DNA of 62,254 nucleotides, taken from the NCBI GenBank assembly GCA_003136315.1, contig PLDW01000151.1, positions 1 through 62,254 on the forward strand. The letters run 5' to 3'. Both the position numbers and the translations under genes were made by a program. Every line of letters starts with the position of its first letter. Positions within the stretch are counted from its first letter, which is position 1. Of this stretch, positions 32,922-41,254 are shown one piece after another. The notes under the pieces are model-generated. The model did not search any database and had not been told where the DNA came from. It saw only the letters and a list, made by a program, of their open reading frames with translations. The stretch is from Gemmataceae bacterium. Its GTDB lineage: Bacteria > Planctomycetota > Planctomycetia > Gemmatales > Gemmataceae.

Positions 32922-33651
32922 GGACCCTGAGATTCAACGAACTCACCGGGAATGTGAAGAAGTGCTCCGAGGTATTCGCTTCGGCGTTGGAGGCTGCGGT
33001 CGCGGAGGAGAAGATCCCGGTCGCCCCACCCGCAACGCGGCAAAGCCGCGGGTGATCTCGGCCGAGATTGAGGTGTTCACCGACGAGGAGGTTCGAGCGA
33101 TCCTCTCAGCGGCTACCGGTGATCGGTTGGAGGCCCTCTGCACCGTGGCAGTCGGCACGGGTGCCCGTGAGGGCGAGTTATTTGCCCTGGAGGCGGCGGA
33201 CTTCGACCTCAACGCGGGTGCGGTCAAAATCACGAAGATGCTCGACCAGGGGGAGGACGGCTTCAAACTCCAGCGCCCGAAAAGCCGGTCGGGGTTGCGA
33301 ACGATCGGGCTTCCGGCTTTCGCCCTTGAAGCCATTGGCCGACATCTTGTGGGCCGCAAGCCTGGCCCCGTTTTTACCAGCCTCTCAGGAACGTATCTCG
33401 CCCGATCGAACTTCATTCGGCGGGATTGGGCCGCGCAACTCGAAAAGGCCGGGGTGTCGTACAGGAAGTTCCACACCTTGCGGCACACCCACGCAAGCCG
33501 ACTCCTGGCTGCCGGGGTCGATCCTGCGGAGGTGTCCAAGCGGATCGGTGACCTTATCGAAACCGTGATGCGAGTGTACGCCCATTGGATACCGACGATC
33601 GGCCGGGACACTGCCGCCCGGGTCGACGCGATTTACGGGGGCAAAAAGTAG
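32922..33651 (+). pseudogene. Degraded tyrosine recombinase (phage integrase-type)
   Basis: The catalytic domain is recognisable: EVFTDEEVRAILSAA, GTGAREGELFALEAADF (first Arg), KFHTLRHTHASRLL (HxxRH) and TVMRVYAHW (Tyr). Two defects are visible. The N-terminal part ends at SEVFASALEAAVAEEKI and the frame then shifts before NAAKPRVISAEI. The usual LGH segment ahead of the tyrosine reads RIGDLIET, with the conserved His missing and a residue deleted. The N-terminal arm-binding domain is absent. A hairpin follows the stop, and tRNA-Thr lies 75 bp further on with its 3' end facing this gene, the classic position of an integrated element. Confidence 0.75.
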
Positions 33652-33673: not shown

Positions 33674-33725
33674 GTAAGGTGGCGATAAGGTGGCGGTCGG
33701 GGGTGCCGATCGCCATAAGTCTAAA

Positions 33726-33796
33726 GCCGCCTGTCGGATTTGAACCGACGACCCCCGCTTTACGAAAGCGGTGCACTACCACTGTGCTAAGGCGGC
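33726..33796 (-). tRNA. tRNA-Thr (anticodon CGT)
   Basis: Read on the minus strand, the 71-nt sequence folds as a cloverleaf. The acceptor GCCGCCT pairs with AGGCGGC. The D arm is GCACAGTGGTAGTGC, the anticodon arm CCGCT-TTCGTAA-AGCGG, and the T arm GTCGG-TTCAAAT-CCGAC. The anticodon is CGT, which reads ACG (Thr). CCA is not encoded. Confidence 0.93.
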
Positions 33797-34698: not shown

Positions 34699-35334
34699 TT
34701 ACTTCAGTTCGACTGACCAGTAAGCAGCATCAATGAATGACTGCCATGACTGGTATTTCTTCTGGGTCAACTTGAGATTCAACAGTGGGCTCCGCTTGGG
34801 CTTCTCGGGCTTGCGGATCAAGGTCATATTCGCTTGACGCGGGGTGCGCCCGCCCTTTCGGACGTTGCAGTCCACACAGGCGCAAACGATATTGTCCCAG
34901 GTCGTCCCACCGCCCTGACTCCGTGGAACAACGTGGTCCAGGCTCAACTCGCTGGTCGGGAACTTCTTCCCGCAGTACTGGCACTGGTTGTGATCACGAG
35001 CGAAGATGTTCCGCCGGTTGAACTTCACCGTCTGCTTCGGCATCTTGTCATAGCCAAGCAACCGGATCACCCGTGGAGCCTGAATCTCCGTGGTCGGCGT
35101 TCGCACCCAGTCGTCATCCTCTTGACGGAAATTCCGCGCCCGGAACTCACTCAGTTCCGACCACGACTGGAAGTCGTAGGTCGCGTACTGCCCGTCCTCC
35201 AGGCTCACCACCTCGGCCAGTTCCTTACACAATAGACAAAAGGCCCGACGGACGGAAATCACGTGCACGGCGAGGAACGTCTTGTTCAAGACGAGCACGC
35301 TCGCATCCAGGCCCGAATATGTGCCGGCATTCAT
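34699..35334 (-). CDS. HNH endonuclease-family protein
   Basis: This 211-residue protein has a beta-rich N-terminal region (DASVLVLNKTFLAVHVISVR). Its HNH core has CQYCGKKFPTSELSLDHVVP followed by RSQGGGTTWDNIVCACVDCN. Two CxxC pairs bind zinc, and the DHVVP histidine is catalytic in the family. The lysine-rich tail is typical of the conserved bacterial HNH protein group with this N-terminal domain. The group is widespread as single chromosomal genes, and its role in repair, restriction or mobile-element biology is not settled. There is no linked methylase. Confidence 0.87.
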   Translation of the reverse strand: MNAGTYSGLDASVLVLNKTFLAVHVISVRRAFCLLCKELAEVVSLEDGQYATYDFQSWSELSEFRARNFRQEDDDWVRTPTTEIQAPRVIRLLGYDKMPKQTVKFNRRNIFARDHNQCQYCGKKFPTSELSLDHVVPRSQGGGTTWDNIVCACVDCNVRKGGRTPRQANMTLIRKPEKPKRSPLLNLKLTQKKYQSWQSFIDAAYWSVELK

Positions 35335-35587: not shown

Positions 35588-35641
35588 AACCTAACCCCCC
35601 ATCCCCCTTCCCTGAGAAGGAAGGGGGAGCCGGAAGGCGGT
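35588..35641. repeat. Dispersed repeat, partial copy (CCCCCTTCC hairpin)
   Basis: It begins AACCTAACCCCCC and carries a CCCCCTTCC/GGAAGGGGG stem followed by AGCCGGAAGGCGG. It is nearly identical to the first half of the next copy, 62 bp downstream. Confidence 0.85.
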
Positions 35642-35649
35642 GAGGGCGG

Positions 35650-35751
35650 AACCTAACCCCCCATCCCCCTTCCCTAAGAAGGAAGGGGGAGCCGGAAGGC
35701 GGTTTGACTCTCCTCCGCCTCCCTGTTGAGGGTTTTGTCCGCTGGTCCTTA
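35650..35751. repeat. Dispersed repeat, full copy, overlapping the mcrC stop
   Basis: This copy of about 100 bp has the CCCCCTTCC/GGAAGGGGG stem and then CTCTCCTCCGCCTCCC, GAGGGTTTTGTCC and GGTCCTTA. Its right edge reaches the stop codon of mcrC at 35749. A third copy in the same orientation lies 14 bp from the mcrB stop. Confidence 0.88.
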
Positions 35752-36936
35752 GCCTCTTGCACATCGTTTCAGTGCCCGCGCAAGACGCTTCCCGCTGGCT
35801 CGACATTCCTCCAGTGCGCCCGCGACTGGGAGTTGAAATAAGGAGACACGCAACTCCCGATTGCCCACAAACAAATCACGCTGGGCGAATCGCCGCCCGG
35901 GGTAGACGAGTCCGACCTGCCGGGCTCCCGTAATGGTGCCATAAGCCAGGATCTGATGCAGGTCGGCTGGGTCGGGGCCAGGGTGTTTCCACTTCGCATC
36001 GAGCACGACACGCGTTTCTCCCCCACCTCGGACGACAAGATCGGGTTGAAGCACGAGGGGTGTGCCTCGCACAGACCCGATCACAAATTCCGGCTGCGAT
36101 TCGACAACCCACTCCCCCCGGGTGACCAGTGCACTGGTGAGAGTGGCCACGAGATAACCCTCGAACGCCCGCCCGAGGTCGATCAGAAATACCCGCCCAC
36201 CGTTCCCGAACGGGGCCGATGCCCGCACCCCGTCCCGGATCAGTTGGCAGAGCGCAATGGCTTCATTGTAGTGAGCCACGCGCGGTTCCCTTCCGGCGGC
36301 CAGAAAGTCGTCATCGGAGACAGGCCCAACCGCCATTCCGTCAAGGGGGGCCGCCGCAGCGATCAGTTCGTCACGAACTTCGGGAGGCAACTCGGTGTGA
36401 GAAAGAAGTGTCGAGACGCATCCGCGGAGTATGCGATTCCAGGGGGTATCCAGGTCGAACGTGGTGTCGGTGATGTGGAACCGCTCGTGGACGGCCCGGC
36501 TGACCGCGTCGCGGAGTTGATCGGCTGCCCGCAACCGGCCGCGGAGAAAGCGGTCGGCCCGATCCTCCTCGTGGTAGCCGGGGATCAACCCCCTGGCGGT
36601 CACGCAACGTAGTCGACTAGCGAGTTCTTGGGCGAGCGCTGCAAGCAGCCCTCCGGTCGGTGCGATAGACTCTCCAGACGGTCGCGCTGGTGAGCCGAGA
36701 CCGAGAATCAGAAGGAGATTCGGCCACGGGTACTTGGGTAGGATCTCGTAGCGGACCGATGGGCCATCGAAGAACCCGACAAGCCCCCGTGGAGTGAGAC
36801 GAAACCGCCCCGTGCGGAAGCCAGGGACGAGATCGATCACCTCCCGGGCGTGTTCACGGAGGAAAGAGACTTCCGGCCGTGGGAGTTTCACCTCCCGGGT
36901 CCGTCGTTCGACCAATCGGATCGTTGGTCGTGTCAC
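35749..36936 (-). CDS. mcrC: McrC-like nuclease subunit of a type IV restriction system
   Basis: This protein of about 395 residues would be the endonuclease partner of an McrB-type motor. The C-terminal PD-(D/E)XK core reads VLQPDLVVRGGGETRVVLDA then KWKH (about residues 295-318), with the paired acidic residues and lysine in place. The McrC landmark FEGYLVATL precedes it, and the N-terminal beta region (GLVGFFDGPSVRYEILPKYP) is also typical. GTG 36936 overlaps the preceding gene's stop by 4 nt, which implies coupled translation; the extension to 37032 overlaps that gene and is rejected. mcrB lies upstream on the same strand but is separated by the membrane gene. It probably degrades modified (methylated) foreign DNA. 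The exact modification is unknown. Confidence 0.85.
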   Translation of the reverse strand: MTRPTIRLVERRTREVKLPRPEVSFLREHAREVIDLVPGFRTGRFRLTPRGLVGFFDGPSVRYEILPKYPWPNLLLILGLGSPARPSGESIAPTGGLLAALAQELASRLRCVTARGLIPGYHEEDRADRFLRGRLRAADQLRDAVSRAVHERFHITDTTFDLDTPWNRILRGCVSTLLSHTELPPEVRDELIAAAAPLDGMAVGPVSDDDFLAAGREPRVAHYNEAIALCQLIRDGVRASAPFGNGGRVFLIDLGRAFEGYLVATLTSALVTRGEWVVESQPEFVIGSVRGTPLVLQPDLVVRGGGETRVVLDAKWKHPGPDPADLHQILAYGTITGARQVGLVYPGRRFAQRDLFVGNRELRVSLFQLPVAGALEECRASGKRLARALKRCARG

Positions 36937-38387
36937 GGTGTCTTCGTCGCCCCCGATTGGTCGACAGGGTCTTCGGGAGGAGGTGTGGCAGGCTTTGGCT
37001 TGCCGCGAAGATCGGGGTTCCACAGCTTCCACCCTCTGCCCAGAGCGGCGAGAGGGTCGCGCGTCTCTCGCCGATGTCTGACTGTGTTCGCGTCATCATC
37101 CTTGACGCAGAACACAGCGACCCCATCAGGCAACACACGATACCCCATCGGCTGGCCGTTGGAGGGGTCAGAGGGAATTTCCGGCAGGATCTCTTTGGGG
37201 ATCTCGTCGAGCGTTTTTGGCCAACGGCCATTCGCCTGTCGGAATCGCTCGCATGCGATGGCAACCGATGCAGCGAGCAGCTCGCCACGTGTCCGGATGC
37301 CCGACTGAGCGATTTTCGCGAAAGAGGGCAGGAACAAGTTCGAGAGGAGATATCGAACGTCTTCAGGCGGACGCGGCGGGAGTGGGATTCGAGCGAACGC
37401 CTCCATCTGCTCCGGATAGGGTCGCTGGGAGGCTTCCACATACTCGGTCATGATTCGCAGTGAAGCCGCCCGATCTTCGGGGACGAAGCCGCGGTAATAA
37501 CTGAGAATTGGACCACTCAACCCGGAGGGGACTCCGAACTCACTCAGATTCTGGGAGCTCAACTTCCCTGTCTGAATGTTCTCGAACAGCTTATCGAGAG
37601 TCGCTCGCTCTCCCCGCAAACAGACCTCAATCCAGGGGAAATCCGCCTCGGCACGGAATTCGGCTTGGAGTTCAGCGAGCCCTGCTTTTGGTTCACTCCA
37701 GGCGAGAACCTGGAACGCCGATTGACTCGCAACCCGGTCCCCGGCCATCCGCACGAGTTGGGAAATCCAGATCGGTTCGTCTCCGATTGACCGAGACGCC
37801 ACCAGCCCTGCCCGGGCGGCTCGGATCCCGCGGTCCGGGTTTCCCTCCAGGGCTGCCAGCCGAGCATCGTAGTTCAGGAAACCAAAGACAAGGCGGCTCT
37901 TTTGGACATGCGGCAAGACGGTGTCCAGCGGGTTGTCGGCGATCGTAATGGCGTAGCGTCCGCCTGGTCGGGCGAGCACATCCGGGCGAAGAAGGGCTTC
38001 GCGGGCCTCATCCCGGGCAGAGGTGGTGGCGTCCCGGAAGAGAAGCATCCACACGAAGGGGATGAAATCTGGATGAGCGTTGGAGAGATACTCGGGGGGC
38101 CACCCACCACTCTGGTTCAGGTTTTCCCACTCCACCGGGAATCTGTCTTGCGTCCTGCGGACGATTGCAGCGGAGTTCTGGTCCGCTGGGGGACTGGCAG
38201 CCAGTCGTCTGGCTTCGATCTCATCAATGCGCCAACCCGGTTCCGTGGCGTCCAGGCGGGCTGTGAGATCGGCGAGTTTGCGCTCACCTGTCCGCTGGAC
38301 CGACGCCCGCCCGATGAAGAGAACGAGTGCCAGGAGCCCGAGCACCACCAAGACACCTGCGGCAAATCGCTTGAGCCATCGTTTCAT
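36933..38387 (-). CDS. Membrane-anchored protein inserted between mcrB and mcrC
   Basis: This 484-residue protein has an N-terminal helix anchor (FAAGVLVVLGLLALVLFIG) and a large, mostly helical extracytoplasmic domain. The C-terminus (CERFRQANGRWPKTLDEIPK, then DPSNGQPMGYRVLPDGVAVF) resembles an unnamed planctomycete family in which a short RWPxSLD...DPFxGxPLxYR motif ends the protein. The protein has no nuclease or ATPase motif. The stop overlaps the mcrC start by 4 nt, so the pair is translationally coupled. It is separated from mcrB by 206 bp that contain a dispersed repeat. Whether it takes part in the restriction system or was captured beside mcrC cannot be decided from sequence. Confidence 0.8.
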   Translation of the reverse strand: MKRWLKRFAAGVLVVLGLLALVLFIGRASVQRTGERKLADLTARLDATEPGWRIDEIEARRLAASPPADQNSAAIVRRTQDRFPVEWENLNQSGGWPPEYLSNAHPDFIPFVWMLLFRDATTSARDEAREALLRPDVLARPGGRYAITIADNPLDTVLPHVQKSRLVFGFLNYDARLAALEGNPDRGIRAARAGLVASRSIGDEPIWISQLVRMAGDRVASQSAFQVLAWSEPKAGLAELQAEFRAEADFPWIEVCLRGERATLDKLFENIQTGKLSSQNLSEFGVPSGLSGPILSYYRGFVPEDRAASLRIMTEYVEASQRPYPEQMEAFARIPLPPRPPEDVRYLLSNLFLPSFAKIAQSGIRTRGELLAASVAIACERFRQANGRWPKTLDEIPKEILPEIPSDPSNGQPMGYRVLPDGVAVFCVKDDDANTVRHRRETRDPLAALGRGWKLWNPDLRGKPKPATPPPEDPVDQSGATKTP

Positions 38388-38477
38388 ACTTGTCGGGGGA
38401 ACCCCCCGCCTCGTCCGAGACTTCGGTCAGGTCTCCTCTTCGGGAGTCTGGGGAAACAGCCTAAGGATGAGCAGACA

Positions 38478-38580
38478 AAACCTAACCCCCCAACCCCCTT
38501 CCCTAAAAAGGAAGGGGGAGCTAAAGGGCGGTTTCACTCTCCTCCGCCTCCCAGTCGAGGGTCTCGTCTGTTGGTCCTAA
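38478..38580. repeat. Dispersed repeat, full copy, directly downstream of mcrB
   Basis: It matches the copy at 35650-35751 along its length (AACCTAACCCCCC, the CCCCCTTCC/GGAAGGGGG stem, CTCTCCTCCGCCTCCC, GAGGGTCTCGTC and TTGGTCCTAA), with some substitutions. It ends 14 bp from the mcrB stop. The two copies bracket the membrane gene and mcrC as direct repeats. The stem could also serve as a terminator. Confidence 0.88.
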
Positions 38581-38593
38581 CTCAACGACGAGA

Positions 38594-41254
38594 TCAGCCC
38601 CCCCCGATTGTCTCCCCGCGAGATCTCGTCCGGCGGTTCGACCCACCCAGCAACCGTGCGGGATCGTAGTCCGCAAGCCTCTCCCGACGTCCCCCAAGCG
38701 CATCGAGCAAGAGTGGGCGGATGTGGTGCTCCCAAACCCTCGTCAGCTTATCAGTGTCGAGGTCCGGAATCATGAAGAAACTATGACCGATTTGCCGGTC
38801 CGGTCCCAGATCCCGGGTCAGGCGAGTGTTCAACTCCTCAAACACCCGGACCACACGGGGTCCGAAAGTCTCGTCCGGGTCCGCCGGTGGATGGTGATCG
38901 AGCCATGCTGCCAGGAGAGCAGGCTCCGGTGCCATGTCCACAAAGGAGAATCGCCGCCGGAGGGCCTGATCGAGCGCGACCGCCGAACGGTCCGAGGCGT
39001 TCATGGTCGCAACCACGAACAGGTTGTCTGGGAGCCGGAACTCCCGACGCGAATACGGCAAGGTCACCGCCTGATCGCGATACTCCAGCAAGTACAGCAA
39101 CTCACCGAAAATCCGGGGCAGGTTTCCGCGGTTGAGTTCGTCGATCAGCAGGACGTGAGGCTCGCTTGGCCGACGGATGGCCTGCTCCGCGAACCCGCAC
39201 AACACCCCATCCTCGACCGGGTAATTGACCTCGTTCCTCCCGTTCACTTCCACGTTTCTCACCCGGATTCCTTCCACGAATTCCTCGTAACTGTAAGCCG
39301 GGTGGAACTGCACCAGCCGCACACAATCGGCCCGGTCGTGGGTGAGCCACCGGGCCAGGCAGCGAGCGACATGCGTCTTTCCGGTTCCTGGCACACCCTG
39401 GAGGACCAGTTGTCGCTTCATCCGAAGCAGTCCGAGGACTCGGTCGAGCCATGTCTCTGGAAGGAAAGTGTCCCGTGCAAACGCAGCCCGATCGTAGGGT
39501 CCACGGCTCACAGGCACACCGGCTCGCCTGGCCAGAATCGTCCGCGGGTCGGGTTCGGCAGTACATGCGAAGACCGGGACGAGCCGATCGAATGTCAGAA
39601 GGATCTCACCGACCAGATCGTCCCGGCGGAGGAGGAAAGCGTCTGGCGGGAGGTGTTTGGCGATGGCAATCGTCTTGGCCGTGGCCCAGTGTCGCAGGTC
39701 GGCAGGGGACCGCACCGATACCACACCCCCCAGGTCGTCCCCGGTCAAGAACTGGCACTCCTCGAACACCGCGCCGATGGCGAGGGCTGCATGGATCGCT
39801 TCGGCGTGATCCTGGACGTTCCGGCGGAACTGCTTCCCAGCCTCCCGTGCAGAACGACCGAGGTGGAAGCCATATCGAACTCCCTCCGCCGCCACCCGAA
39901 CGAAGAACTGAGCGTCTGCCCGACGGTTGGCCTGCGATTGGCGATAAAATGTGATCCATTGCACCGTTTGGTAGGGTCCAGACCGGCCAAAATCGTTCTT
40001 GCAGATGCTCGTCAGCGCCCGCCCGGGCTTTGCCTCGGCCTCAAGGTTCCAGCCGTACTCCCCCCCGAGCACTGGCCGAACGTACCGGGCTTCGAGTCCC
40101 TTGCACAACTCCACGACGGGTTCACGGAGGACGAACCGGTACCGCTCCCGTCGGGCGTTCATCCACTCCCGTGTGTTTGTGGTGGCGAGTTCATTCAGGA
40201 ACTGAAAGGTGTCCGTGCAGAACCCACCAAACGTTGGTTCACGGGAAGGGCTCTCGGGCGGGAAGCCTGCCAGTTCGATCAACACGTCAGCAAGTTCCAG
40301 AGGGTGAATTCGGAACTCATCTCGGAGTACCCCCGCCACCTCGGCCCAAAGGTGGGTCCTAGCGGAAATGGGGAGGGCGGGGGTGTATGCATCGTCAACG
40401 TGAGCGAGTGCAAGCTCCCACTGGCTGTCCGGGAAGGTGGCGCGGAACGTCTCAAAAGCGGCTTCATGATTCCCACACCGGGCAGCGATTTGAAACTGGA
40501 GATTCCCGGCCCGGACCTCATCCGGAGCCTCCCGGATACGCTGGCGAAGGGGGACACTCACCCGAACTTTGCGAACCGCGTCGCGGATGCGCTCGGCATC
40601 CGGCCCCCAGGCAAAGATGGCCACAGGGAGAGGGTCGGTCGGGAGTTCCCGTCCGTCGATCCGCCCCACACGGGCGAGGAAATCATCAATTGCGAGAGCA
40701 GACAAGTTGGGGGCGAGAGTGCGGAGGATGTCATAACCGCTGGCGACCGCCCCGAACCGCTGTGCGATCGACCCTTTGGGAGGTGAGACAAGGCCGAGTC
40801 GCACCAGACCGGCTTCCGTGGCCGGACACCAGCACGGGAGTCGGTCGGGGTCAAGGGCCTGGACGACACCCGCCCAGAAGGTCGGCCCAAGACCGGGAAC
40901 GGAATACGCCTCTCCCGCTTCCAGGCACCGACTGACACGGTCCGGTAGGGGATCTTGGCCGCGGATCAGGTGGTTGAGGGCGTGTCGGAGAAATCGCGGG
41001 CGACGCTCGATCGCTGCGGGATGGAAGGAGACGGGAGACACAGCCAGATAGAAGGATCTCAGCTGTTGGCACAGAGAGGGATCGTCGCCACGGTCGAGAA
41101 ACTCCGGGTTCAGCCACACGGAACGGGCATCCTGGATCGCGGCCTCCCGACGGCCTTGTCCGTGCGTGACCCCTGCCGCCTGGTAGATGCCCAGGAGCGG
41201 GCCGGCTGGAAGGCGCAGGGAGTGTGGCGTGGTCTGGTGGCGGTGACGGTTCAC
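38594..41254 (-). CDS. mcrB: McrB-like AAA+ GTPase/ATPase with DUF2461-like N-terminal region
   Basis: This 886-residue motor protein has its AAA+ module at about residues 600-850. It shows Walker A GVPGTGKTH (about 619), FHPAYSYEEFVEGIR (an McrB family segment), Walker B LLIDELNRGNLPRIFGELLY, and ATMNASDRSAVALDQALRRR, where MNxxDR is the McrB signature. At about 340-540 a region beginning FCTDTFQFLNELATTNTREW and ending FHLGRSAREAGKQFRRNV looks like DUF2461. An earlier helical region (1-330) has no recognised domain. In the McrB type IV restriction family the N-terminal region recognises modified DNA, so the DUF2461-like part may be a reader here. The start is GTG 41254. No ATG is better placed. 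Confidence 0.87.
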   Translation of the reverse strand: MNRHRHQTTPHSLRLPAGPLLGIYQAAGVTHGQGRREAAIQDARSVWLNPEFLDRGDDPSLCQQLRSFYLAVSPVSFHPAAIERRPRFLRHALNHLIRGQDPLPDRVSRCLEAGEAYSVPGLGPTFWAGVVQALDPDRLPCWCPATEAGLVRLGLVSPPKGSIAQRFGAVASGYDILRTLAPNLSALAIDDFLARVGRIDGRELPTDPLPVAIFAWGPDAERIRDAVRKVRVSVPLRQRIREAPDEVRAGNLQFQIAARCGNHEAAFETFRATFPDSQWELALAHVDDAYTPALPISARTHLWAEVAGVLRDEFRIHPLELADVLIELAGFPPESPSREPTFGGFCTDTFQFLNELATTNTREWMNARRERYRFVLREPVVELCKGLEARYVRPVLGGEYGWNLEAEAKPGRALTSICKNDFGRSGPYQTVQWITFYRQSQANRRADAQFFVRVAAEGVRYGFHLGRSAREAGKQFRRNVQDHAEAIHAALAIGAVFEECQFLTGDDLGGVVSVRSPADLRHWATAKTIAIAKHLPPDAFLLRRDDLVGEILLTFDRLVPVFACTAEPDPRTILARRAGVPVSRGPYDRAAFARDTFLPETWLDRVLGLLRMKRQLVLQGVPGTGKTHVARCLARWLTHDRADCVRLVQFHPAYSYEEFVEGIRVRNVEVNGRNEVNYPVEDGVLCGFAEQAIRRPSEPHVLLIDELNRGNLPRIFGELLYLLEYRDQAVTLPYSRREFRLPDNLFVVATMNASDRSAVALDQALRRRFSFVDMAPEPALLAAWLDHHPPADPDETFGPRVVRVFEELNTRLTRDLGPDRQIGHSFFMIPDLDTDKLTRVWEHHIRPLLLDALGGRRERLADYDPARLLGGSNRRTRSRGETIGGG

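Follow-up and report, generated by a model that had tools for sequence, protein, structure and literature searches.

A recurrent McrBC variant of the Gemmataceae with a predicted membrane protein gene between mcrB and mcrC

The prototype McrBC of E. coli K-12 is a two-component system. Its McrB is an AAA+ motor with Walker motifs and an NxxD signature, its McrC carries the PF10117 domain with PD-(D/E)xK residues, and mcrB lies upstream of mcrC on one strand. The locus described here shares all of these features. It is located on the window, the whole analysed stretch of 62,254 nucleotides (nt) from a Gemmataceae bacterium (contig PLDW01000151.1, assembly GCA_003136315.1), and differs from the prototype in that the gene of a predicted membrane protein, termed M, lies between mcrB and mcrC. 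The locus is a recurrent three-gene McrBC variant and not a single capture. By sequence, the variant has been found so far in the window's family, the Gemmataceae.

Among McrBC relatives, a membrane link is known to have been predicted only for the McrB fusion branch CoCoPALM (PMC11090510). In that branch the McrB GTPase carries a fused FtsB-like domain and transmembrane helix, and genes resembling those of signal peptidase and pilus assembly occur nearby. CoCoNuT systems combine a McrB/McrC-like core with extra operon genes, some of them in overlapping frames, and the methods of that paper state that McrB and McrC homologues are occasionally parted by intervening genes (PMC11090510). The present locus resembles CoCoPALM in its predicted membrane link and CoCoNuT in its additional operon gene. 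However, CoCoPALM belongs to the NxD branch, with coiled coils and the helix fused to McrB, and CoCoNuT likewise has an NxD motif and coiled coils, whereas the window McrB has an NxxD signature (MNASDR) and is unfused, M being encoded separately and belonging to another family. Because the signature is NxxD and not NxD, the locus is neither a CoCoNuT nor a CoCoPALM as defined there (PMC11090510).

The mcrB-M-mcrC locus of the window

The three genes were re-read from the sequence, and all were confirmed on the minus strand where the first-pass annotation had placed them. Lengths are in amino acids (aa).

38594..41254, minus strand: mcrB, 886 aa, GTG start; helical N-terminal part ~17-330, DUF2461 348-561, AAA_5 616-769
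36933..38387, minus strand: M, 484 aa, ATG start; predicted single N-terminal hydrophobic helix, helical domain and small C-terminal beta part
35749..36936, minus strand: mcrC, 395 aa, GTG start; PF10117, PD...DxK nuclease residues
36933..36936, minus strand: overlap of the M stop and the mcrC start, four shared bases GTGA

The distance from the mcrB stop to the mcrC start is 1657 nt, with M in between, which matches the 1.65 kb reported earlier. The reported 4-nt same-strand overlap was also recovered, as the GTGA common to the end of M and the start of mcrC.

By its motor, nuclease and gene order the locus is classed as McrBC from sequence. In the Pfam scan McrC matched PF10117 (McrBC; E 9.7e-32, residues 97-346) and McrB matched AAA_5 (E 4.6e-18); mcrB precedes mcrC on the same strand as in a McrBC operon, with M inserted. 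The motifs that had been called intact were read directly in the translations: GVPGTGKT (Walker A), LLIDELNRG and MNASDR in McrB, and PD...DAK in McrC, where P298, D299, D313 and K315 are invariant in 36 McrCs. Restriction of modified DNA would be a function inherited from the McrBC family.

Compared with the E. coli K-12 protein, the window McrB has an unassigned helical N-terminus and a DUF2461 domain (Pfam, E 1.2e-15, residues 348-561), the latter missing from the first-pass annotation, and no ADAM/DUF3578 domain was found in it by Pfam. Among four other McrBs scanned for DUF2461, one gave a sub-threshold match (L276, E 0.0004) and three gave none. The main text of PMC11090510 contains none of the words DUF2461, planctomycet and Gemmata. 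No planctomycete McrBC that has a separate membrane component was recognised in the open-access literature, as judged by titles and abstract openings. DUF2357, a domain expected at the N-terminus of McrC, gave no match in the Pfam scan. The NCBIfam scores of both proteins fall far below the cut-offs: McrB matched the McrB model NF008457 with E 4.8e-41, yet with 140.9 bits against a 637-bit cut-off, and McrC reached 26.5 bits against 338. In PADLOC, McrB matched REase_II models (E 3.3e-17) and AAA-type models, and McrC and M were without a match; neither M nor McrC matched PHROGs.

A structural model of McrB residues 1-607, built from 12 sequences, has a mean predicted local distance difference test (pLDDT) of 78.5. 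The top PDB matches of its N-terminal part were 2a8e and the DUF1054 protein 3mqz (E 0.05-0.07, probability 1.00; none significant), followed by a weak and likewise non-significant resemblance to HhH-type 8-oxoguanine glycosylases (E 0.75 and above). The latter is only a lead toward possible base recognition and not a result.

Recurrence of M beside mcrBC

The sample comprised 95 genomes of the window's family, searched for McrC and for M with a single query sequence each. The McrC query matched 37 genomes and the M query at least 67. Forty fetched stretches and the window represent 36 of the 37 McrC genomes, and mcrB, M and mcrC were mapped in them by hidden Markov models (HMMs); the 37th, G010, is split over two contigs and was judged from sequence-search results. 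Start codons, here and in the N-terminal analysis of the M relatives below, were chosen by a heuristic.

The first-pass annotation had left open whether the locus was a three-component system or had captured an unrelated gene, and had proposed to look for M upstream of mcrC in relatives. M was found directly upstream of mcrC in 24 of the 37 genomes. The 4-nt overlap is present in 22 of the 37, window included, and two more have gaps of 11 and 16 nt; in G069, one of the 22, the M sequence is spread over two frames, and in G076, another, a contig end leaves just a fragment of M. In G086 M lies 759 nt upstream of mcrC, and in G080 the only trace of M seen near mcrC is a remnant, 22 residues that match its C-terminus. 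Where mcrB and mcrC are contiguous, M stands between them in 20 of 25 loci (two of these, G075 and G069, have mcrB cut by the contig edge), in one to four copies and, in the 18 complete loci, 4-255 nt from mcrB. None of the mapped Ms precedes mcrB or follows a full-length mcrC. The association is also seen where mcrB and mcrC are apart: in G004 the M-mcrC pair is intact with mcrB 10 kb off on the other strand, in G033 M is with mcrB and mcrC is on another contig, and in G107 M is 1.6 kb behind mcrB. As read from these sequences, several genera have kept M next to mcrB, next to mcrC or between the two, and its overlap with mcrC is mostly preserved.

Chance does not account for the arrangement, because the order mcrB-M-mcrC recurs in other genomes, and the same recurrence rejects a one-off capture. 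The interpretation in the first-pass annotation is supported in part: the third gene recurs, which argues against a single capture; an obligatory subunit is counted against by the data given below.

Control loci were taken from a 347-genome survey, in which 20 of the 27 loci with McrCs outside the subfamily were fetched (two genomes, G087 and G092, are of the same family as the window) and scored on stop-to-stop frames. The mcrB and mcrC frames abut or overlap in 20 of 20, so that the usual adjacency assumed earlier holds for these loci outside the subfamily, and M is absent from all 20 fetched loci.

A tandem M-mcrC duplication was observed in genome G081 (L101, 8416-12768), where one mcrC has shrunk to 40 codons and is followed by an M.

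The M protein and its relatives

M contains a sole hydrophobic stretch, N-terminal FAAGVLVVLGLLALVLFIG with a mean Kyte-Doolittle value of 2.84, and is predicted to be membrane-anchored. Nothing scored above threshold in Pfam (best Tad, E 0.14), NCBIfam or PADLOC, and among 60 family members in the alignment no more than two match Pfam at all at E <=0.01, the matches to DUF2603 and T2SSG being marginal. The T2SSG-like C-terminus, seen in one of the 60 members (E 0.0097), is only a lead. No match to M was found on plasmids or phages by tblastn.

The AlphaFold model of M, from 60 sequences, has a pLDDT of 92.6 and a predicted TM-score of 0.90. It consists of a long N-terminal helix (residues 2-48), a helical domain and a small C-terminal beta part. 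No significant match to a known fold was obtained by Foldseek against the PDB (best E 0.62) or BFVD (best E 0.31), or with the sequence profile, whose top PDB match was a receptor/cytochrome fusion at E 0.083.

Of 44 M reading frames, 41 have an N-terminal hydrophobic window that scores above 1.6, and the charge ahead of the stretch is more positive than that behind it in 38 of the 44 and less so in two. The more positive flank of a membrane helix marks its cytoplasmic side (the positive-inside rule); the bulk of M is therefore predicted to lie outside the cytoplasm.

Proteins related to M also occur without mcrBC nearby. They belong to the same family by HMM and many have the N-terminal hydrophobic stretch; however, they are encoded by single or tandem genes, and in the fetched stretches all such unlinked Ms were solitary or in tandem. 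The best 80 of 156 matches came from Planctomycetota, Verrucomicrobia, Hydrogenedentota, Nitrospirota and others. No recurrent downstream partner of the unlinked Ms was seen with crude gene calls, the 10 neighbours scanned with Pfam belonging to unrelated families or none. Two distant homologues (L170, 453-1573; L205, 8743-9785) each lie downstream of a sigma-70-family gene and an unassigned one, possibly envelope signalling operons.

Chromosomal setting, selection and the role of M

Outside the three genes the following features were noted.

34699..35334, minus strand: HNH-family gene, 211 aa, 415 nt past mcrC; not counted as a component
38479..38578: dispersed repeat copy in the mcrB-M gap
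35588..35749: dispersed repeat copies after mcrC, in the same orientation as the copy before M

In 27 of 37 genomes the HNH gene lies 168-430 nt past mcrC, with matches in 17 of 18 complete loci. It was set aside as a further component because this highly conserved gene is present in 85 of 95 Gemmataceae genomes (E up to 1e-40), many of them without this McrBC. Part of the gene order is therefore plain synteny. Two more genes are found repeatedly on the mcrB side (11 of 18 complete loci); Pfam identifies their copies in L102 as a calcineurin-like phosphoesterase and an MFS transporter. These recurring neighbours would be expected if the locus merely occupied a fixed chromosomal site beside a core gene and M were carried along in an inherited gene order. 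This explanation is improbable, as the outer neighbours vary while mcrB-M-mcrC stays and M also accompanies mcrB or mcrBC at places without an adjacent HNH gene (G033, G016). It is weakened by this second chromosomal setting. The McrCs not found beside HNH (G016, G028, G033, G085, G086 and G107; the G086 contig ends 317 nt past mcrC, where adjacency could not be checked) form one clade with support 93/88. Within it M again separates mcrB from mcrC in G016 and lies behind mcrB in G033 and G107, and before mcrC in G086 at the distances given above, and the Ms of this setting form one clade (97, starred) with four unlinked Ms of G086's genus group. M accompanies mcrBC in at least two chromosomal settings. 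No HNH gene was found beside L103, L105 or L109, of which L103 leaves only 180 nt of room. In L257 (5173-8562, genome G092) an HNH gene comes directly after mcrB, and no mcrC of this subfamily was found between them.

The genus group g17 has McrC in 19 of 19 genomes, a constancy that is unusual for a restriction system across a genus group. Together with the frequent position of the locus beside a core gene and the weak glycosylase resemblance of the McrB N-terminal model, it would suit a domesticated core function, with the locus repairing DNA or maintaining the chromosome at the membrane in place of phage defence. Such a role is very improbable: divergence is fast, the McrCs of g1 and g17 being 45-57% identical to that of the window against 86-93% for the HNH proteins, and this kind of McrC was not found in 58 of the 95 family genomes.

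A tree of M, computed by a quick method, contained 41 rows labelled linked, 52 unlinked and 11 far; the linked rows include L097 (G080, on a contig without mcrB or mcrC) and L116, 1.6 kb from mcrB. All 41 fall inside a set of 58 rows, with 14 unlinked and three far (support 88, below the starring level), and the linked group needs nine label changes, five of them forced by starred branches. The tree fits one old association of M with mcrBC followed by departures and losses, and leaves room for several gains. Four close pairs, of which three are drawn from the same three loci, gave ratios of nonsynonymous to synonymous substitution rates (dN/dS) of 0.16-0.22 for M, 0.14-0.22 for McrC and 0.06-0.14 for McrB. 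M is under purifying selection about as strong as that on McrC in four of the five pairs tested.

The explanation favoured here, held at about even confidence, is a McrBC of the DUF2461 type that has retained a membrane accessory, probably coupled to it in translation, which is auxiliary and non-essential and may act as an anchor or an envelope-side sensor. A 4-nt stop/start overlap would tie the synthesis of the upstream protein to that of the downstream one. Ribosomes finishing M would re-initiate on mcrC, and M and McrC would be made together. M would reside in the inner membrane, its helical domain on the non-cytoplasmic side, and would support McrBC, most plausibly by placing or triggering it where foreign DNA enters. 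A more specific proposal, rather unlikely as it stands, is envelope-coupled restriction, in which a periplasm-facing M, whose modelled fold gave no match in the PDB, would tie the DUF2461-type McrBC to the inner membrane and link DNA entry or envelope disturbance to the McrC nuclease. A recurrent, separate and coupled membrane protein in the operon would imply that another type IV restriction branch is organised at the membrane, and would offer a first way into the function of a large, uncharacterised protein family of Planctomycetota, Verrucomicrobiota and other phyla.

Several observations weigh against an accessory role of M. First, 11 of 37 genomes have no M beside mcrC (G074, G072, G078, G021, G107, G085, G028, G033, G015, G013 and G010; in G072 the covered upstream sequence is 1074 nt), and M is therefore not required. 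Five of the 25 contiguous loci lack it (G074, G078, G021, G085 and G010), and in three of the genomes with mcrB and mcrC apart (G028, G015 and G013) it is at neither gene. Second, 64 of 77 named loci among the best 80 of 156 matches have neither mcrB nor mcrC, and 14 unlinked Ms share the 58-row group with the linked ones, some of them in genomes without a McrC of this subfamily (G022, G087, G093 and G094). The first-pass annotation had regarded adjacent mcrB and mcrC in relatives and an M family residing mostly outside restriction loci as refuting a functional component, and both are in part observed. Third, the fifth pair, L091/L092, has a dN/dS of 0.56 for M, 0.39 for McrC and 0.28 for McrB. 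Fourth, the positive-inside bias in 38 of 44 frames places the bulk of M away from DNA. Finally, across 18 loci the partial correlation of M and McrC distances given HNH is 0.18, a value reached in 301 of 2000 permutations, whereas that of McrB and McrC is 0.84. McrB and McrC behave as partners and M is without that signal; co-evolution of M and McrC is unsupported beyond the HNH (species) signal, which speaks against M as a tightly bound subunit.

A competing explanation is considered possible, if less probable than the accessory role: M would be a planctomycete envelope protein in its own right, whose gene joined the operon a single time in an ancestor and stays through coupling, with no part in restriction. 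Once mcrC had lost its own ribosome-binding context, an imprecise loss of M would silence it. The missing co-variation, the genomes that keep mcrBC without M, and the many relatives outside restriction loci, some in tandem arrays and distant ones in other contexts such as behind sigma-70-family genes, all agree with such hitch-hiking. However, most contiguous loci retain M, frequently as several copies, although its loss is clearly possible. By heuristic start calls, four M-less mcrCs of g17 (L095, L110, L112 and L113; G072, G074, G078 and G021) still start with GTGA, as expected if M was lost; elsewhere the M-less mcrC starts are GTGA in G015 and ATG in G107, G085, G028, G033 and G013. In G033, moreover, M stays behind mcrB, and coupling to mcrC cannot explain its retention because mcrC is on another contig. 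An anchor or sensor is preferred to hitch-hiking because M stands beside mcrB or mcrC in three of the six genomes in which these are apart and accompanies mcrBC in two settings; the preference is slight, owing to the lack of M-McrC co-variation and the losses of M.

The 206-nt gap between mcrB and M contains the dispersed repeat listed above, and direct copies of it flank M-mcrC. These flanking repeats were set aside as marks of a mobile cassette because the repeat has 49 matches in its own genome among the matches listed. At 32962-33651 on the plus strand of the window, a 229-aa open reading frame of the phage integrase family (PF00589) lies beside a tRNA-Thr gene (33725-33796, minus strand), close to the locus, and is possibly the remnant of an integrated element.

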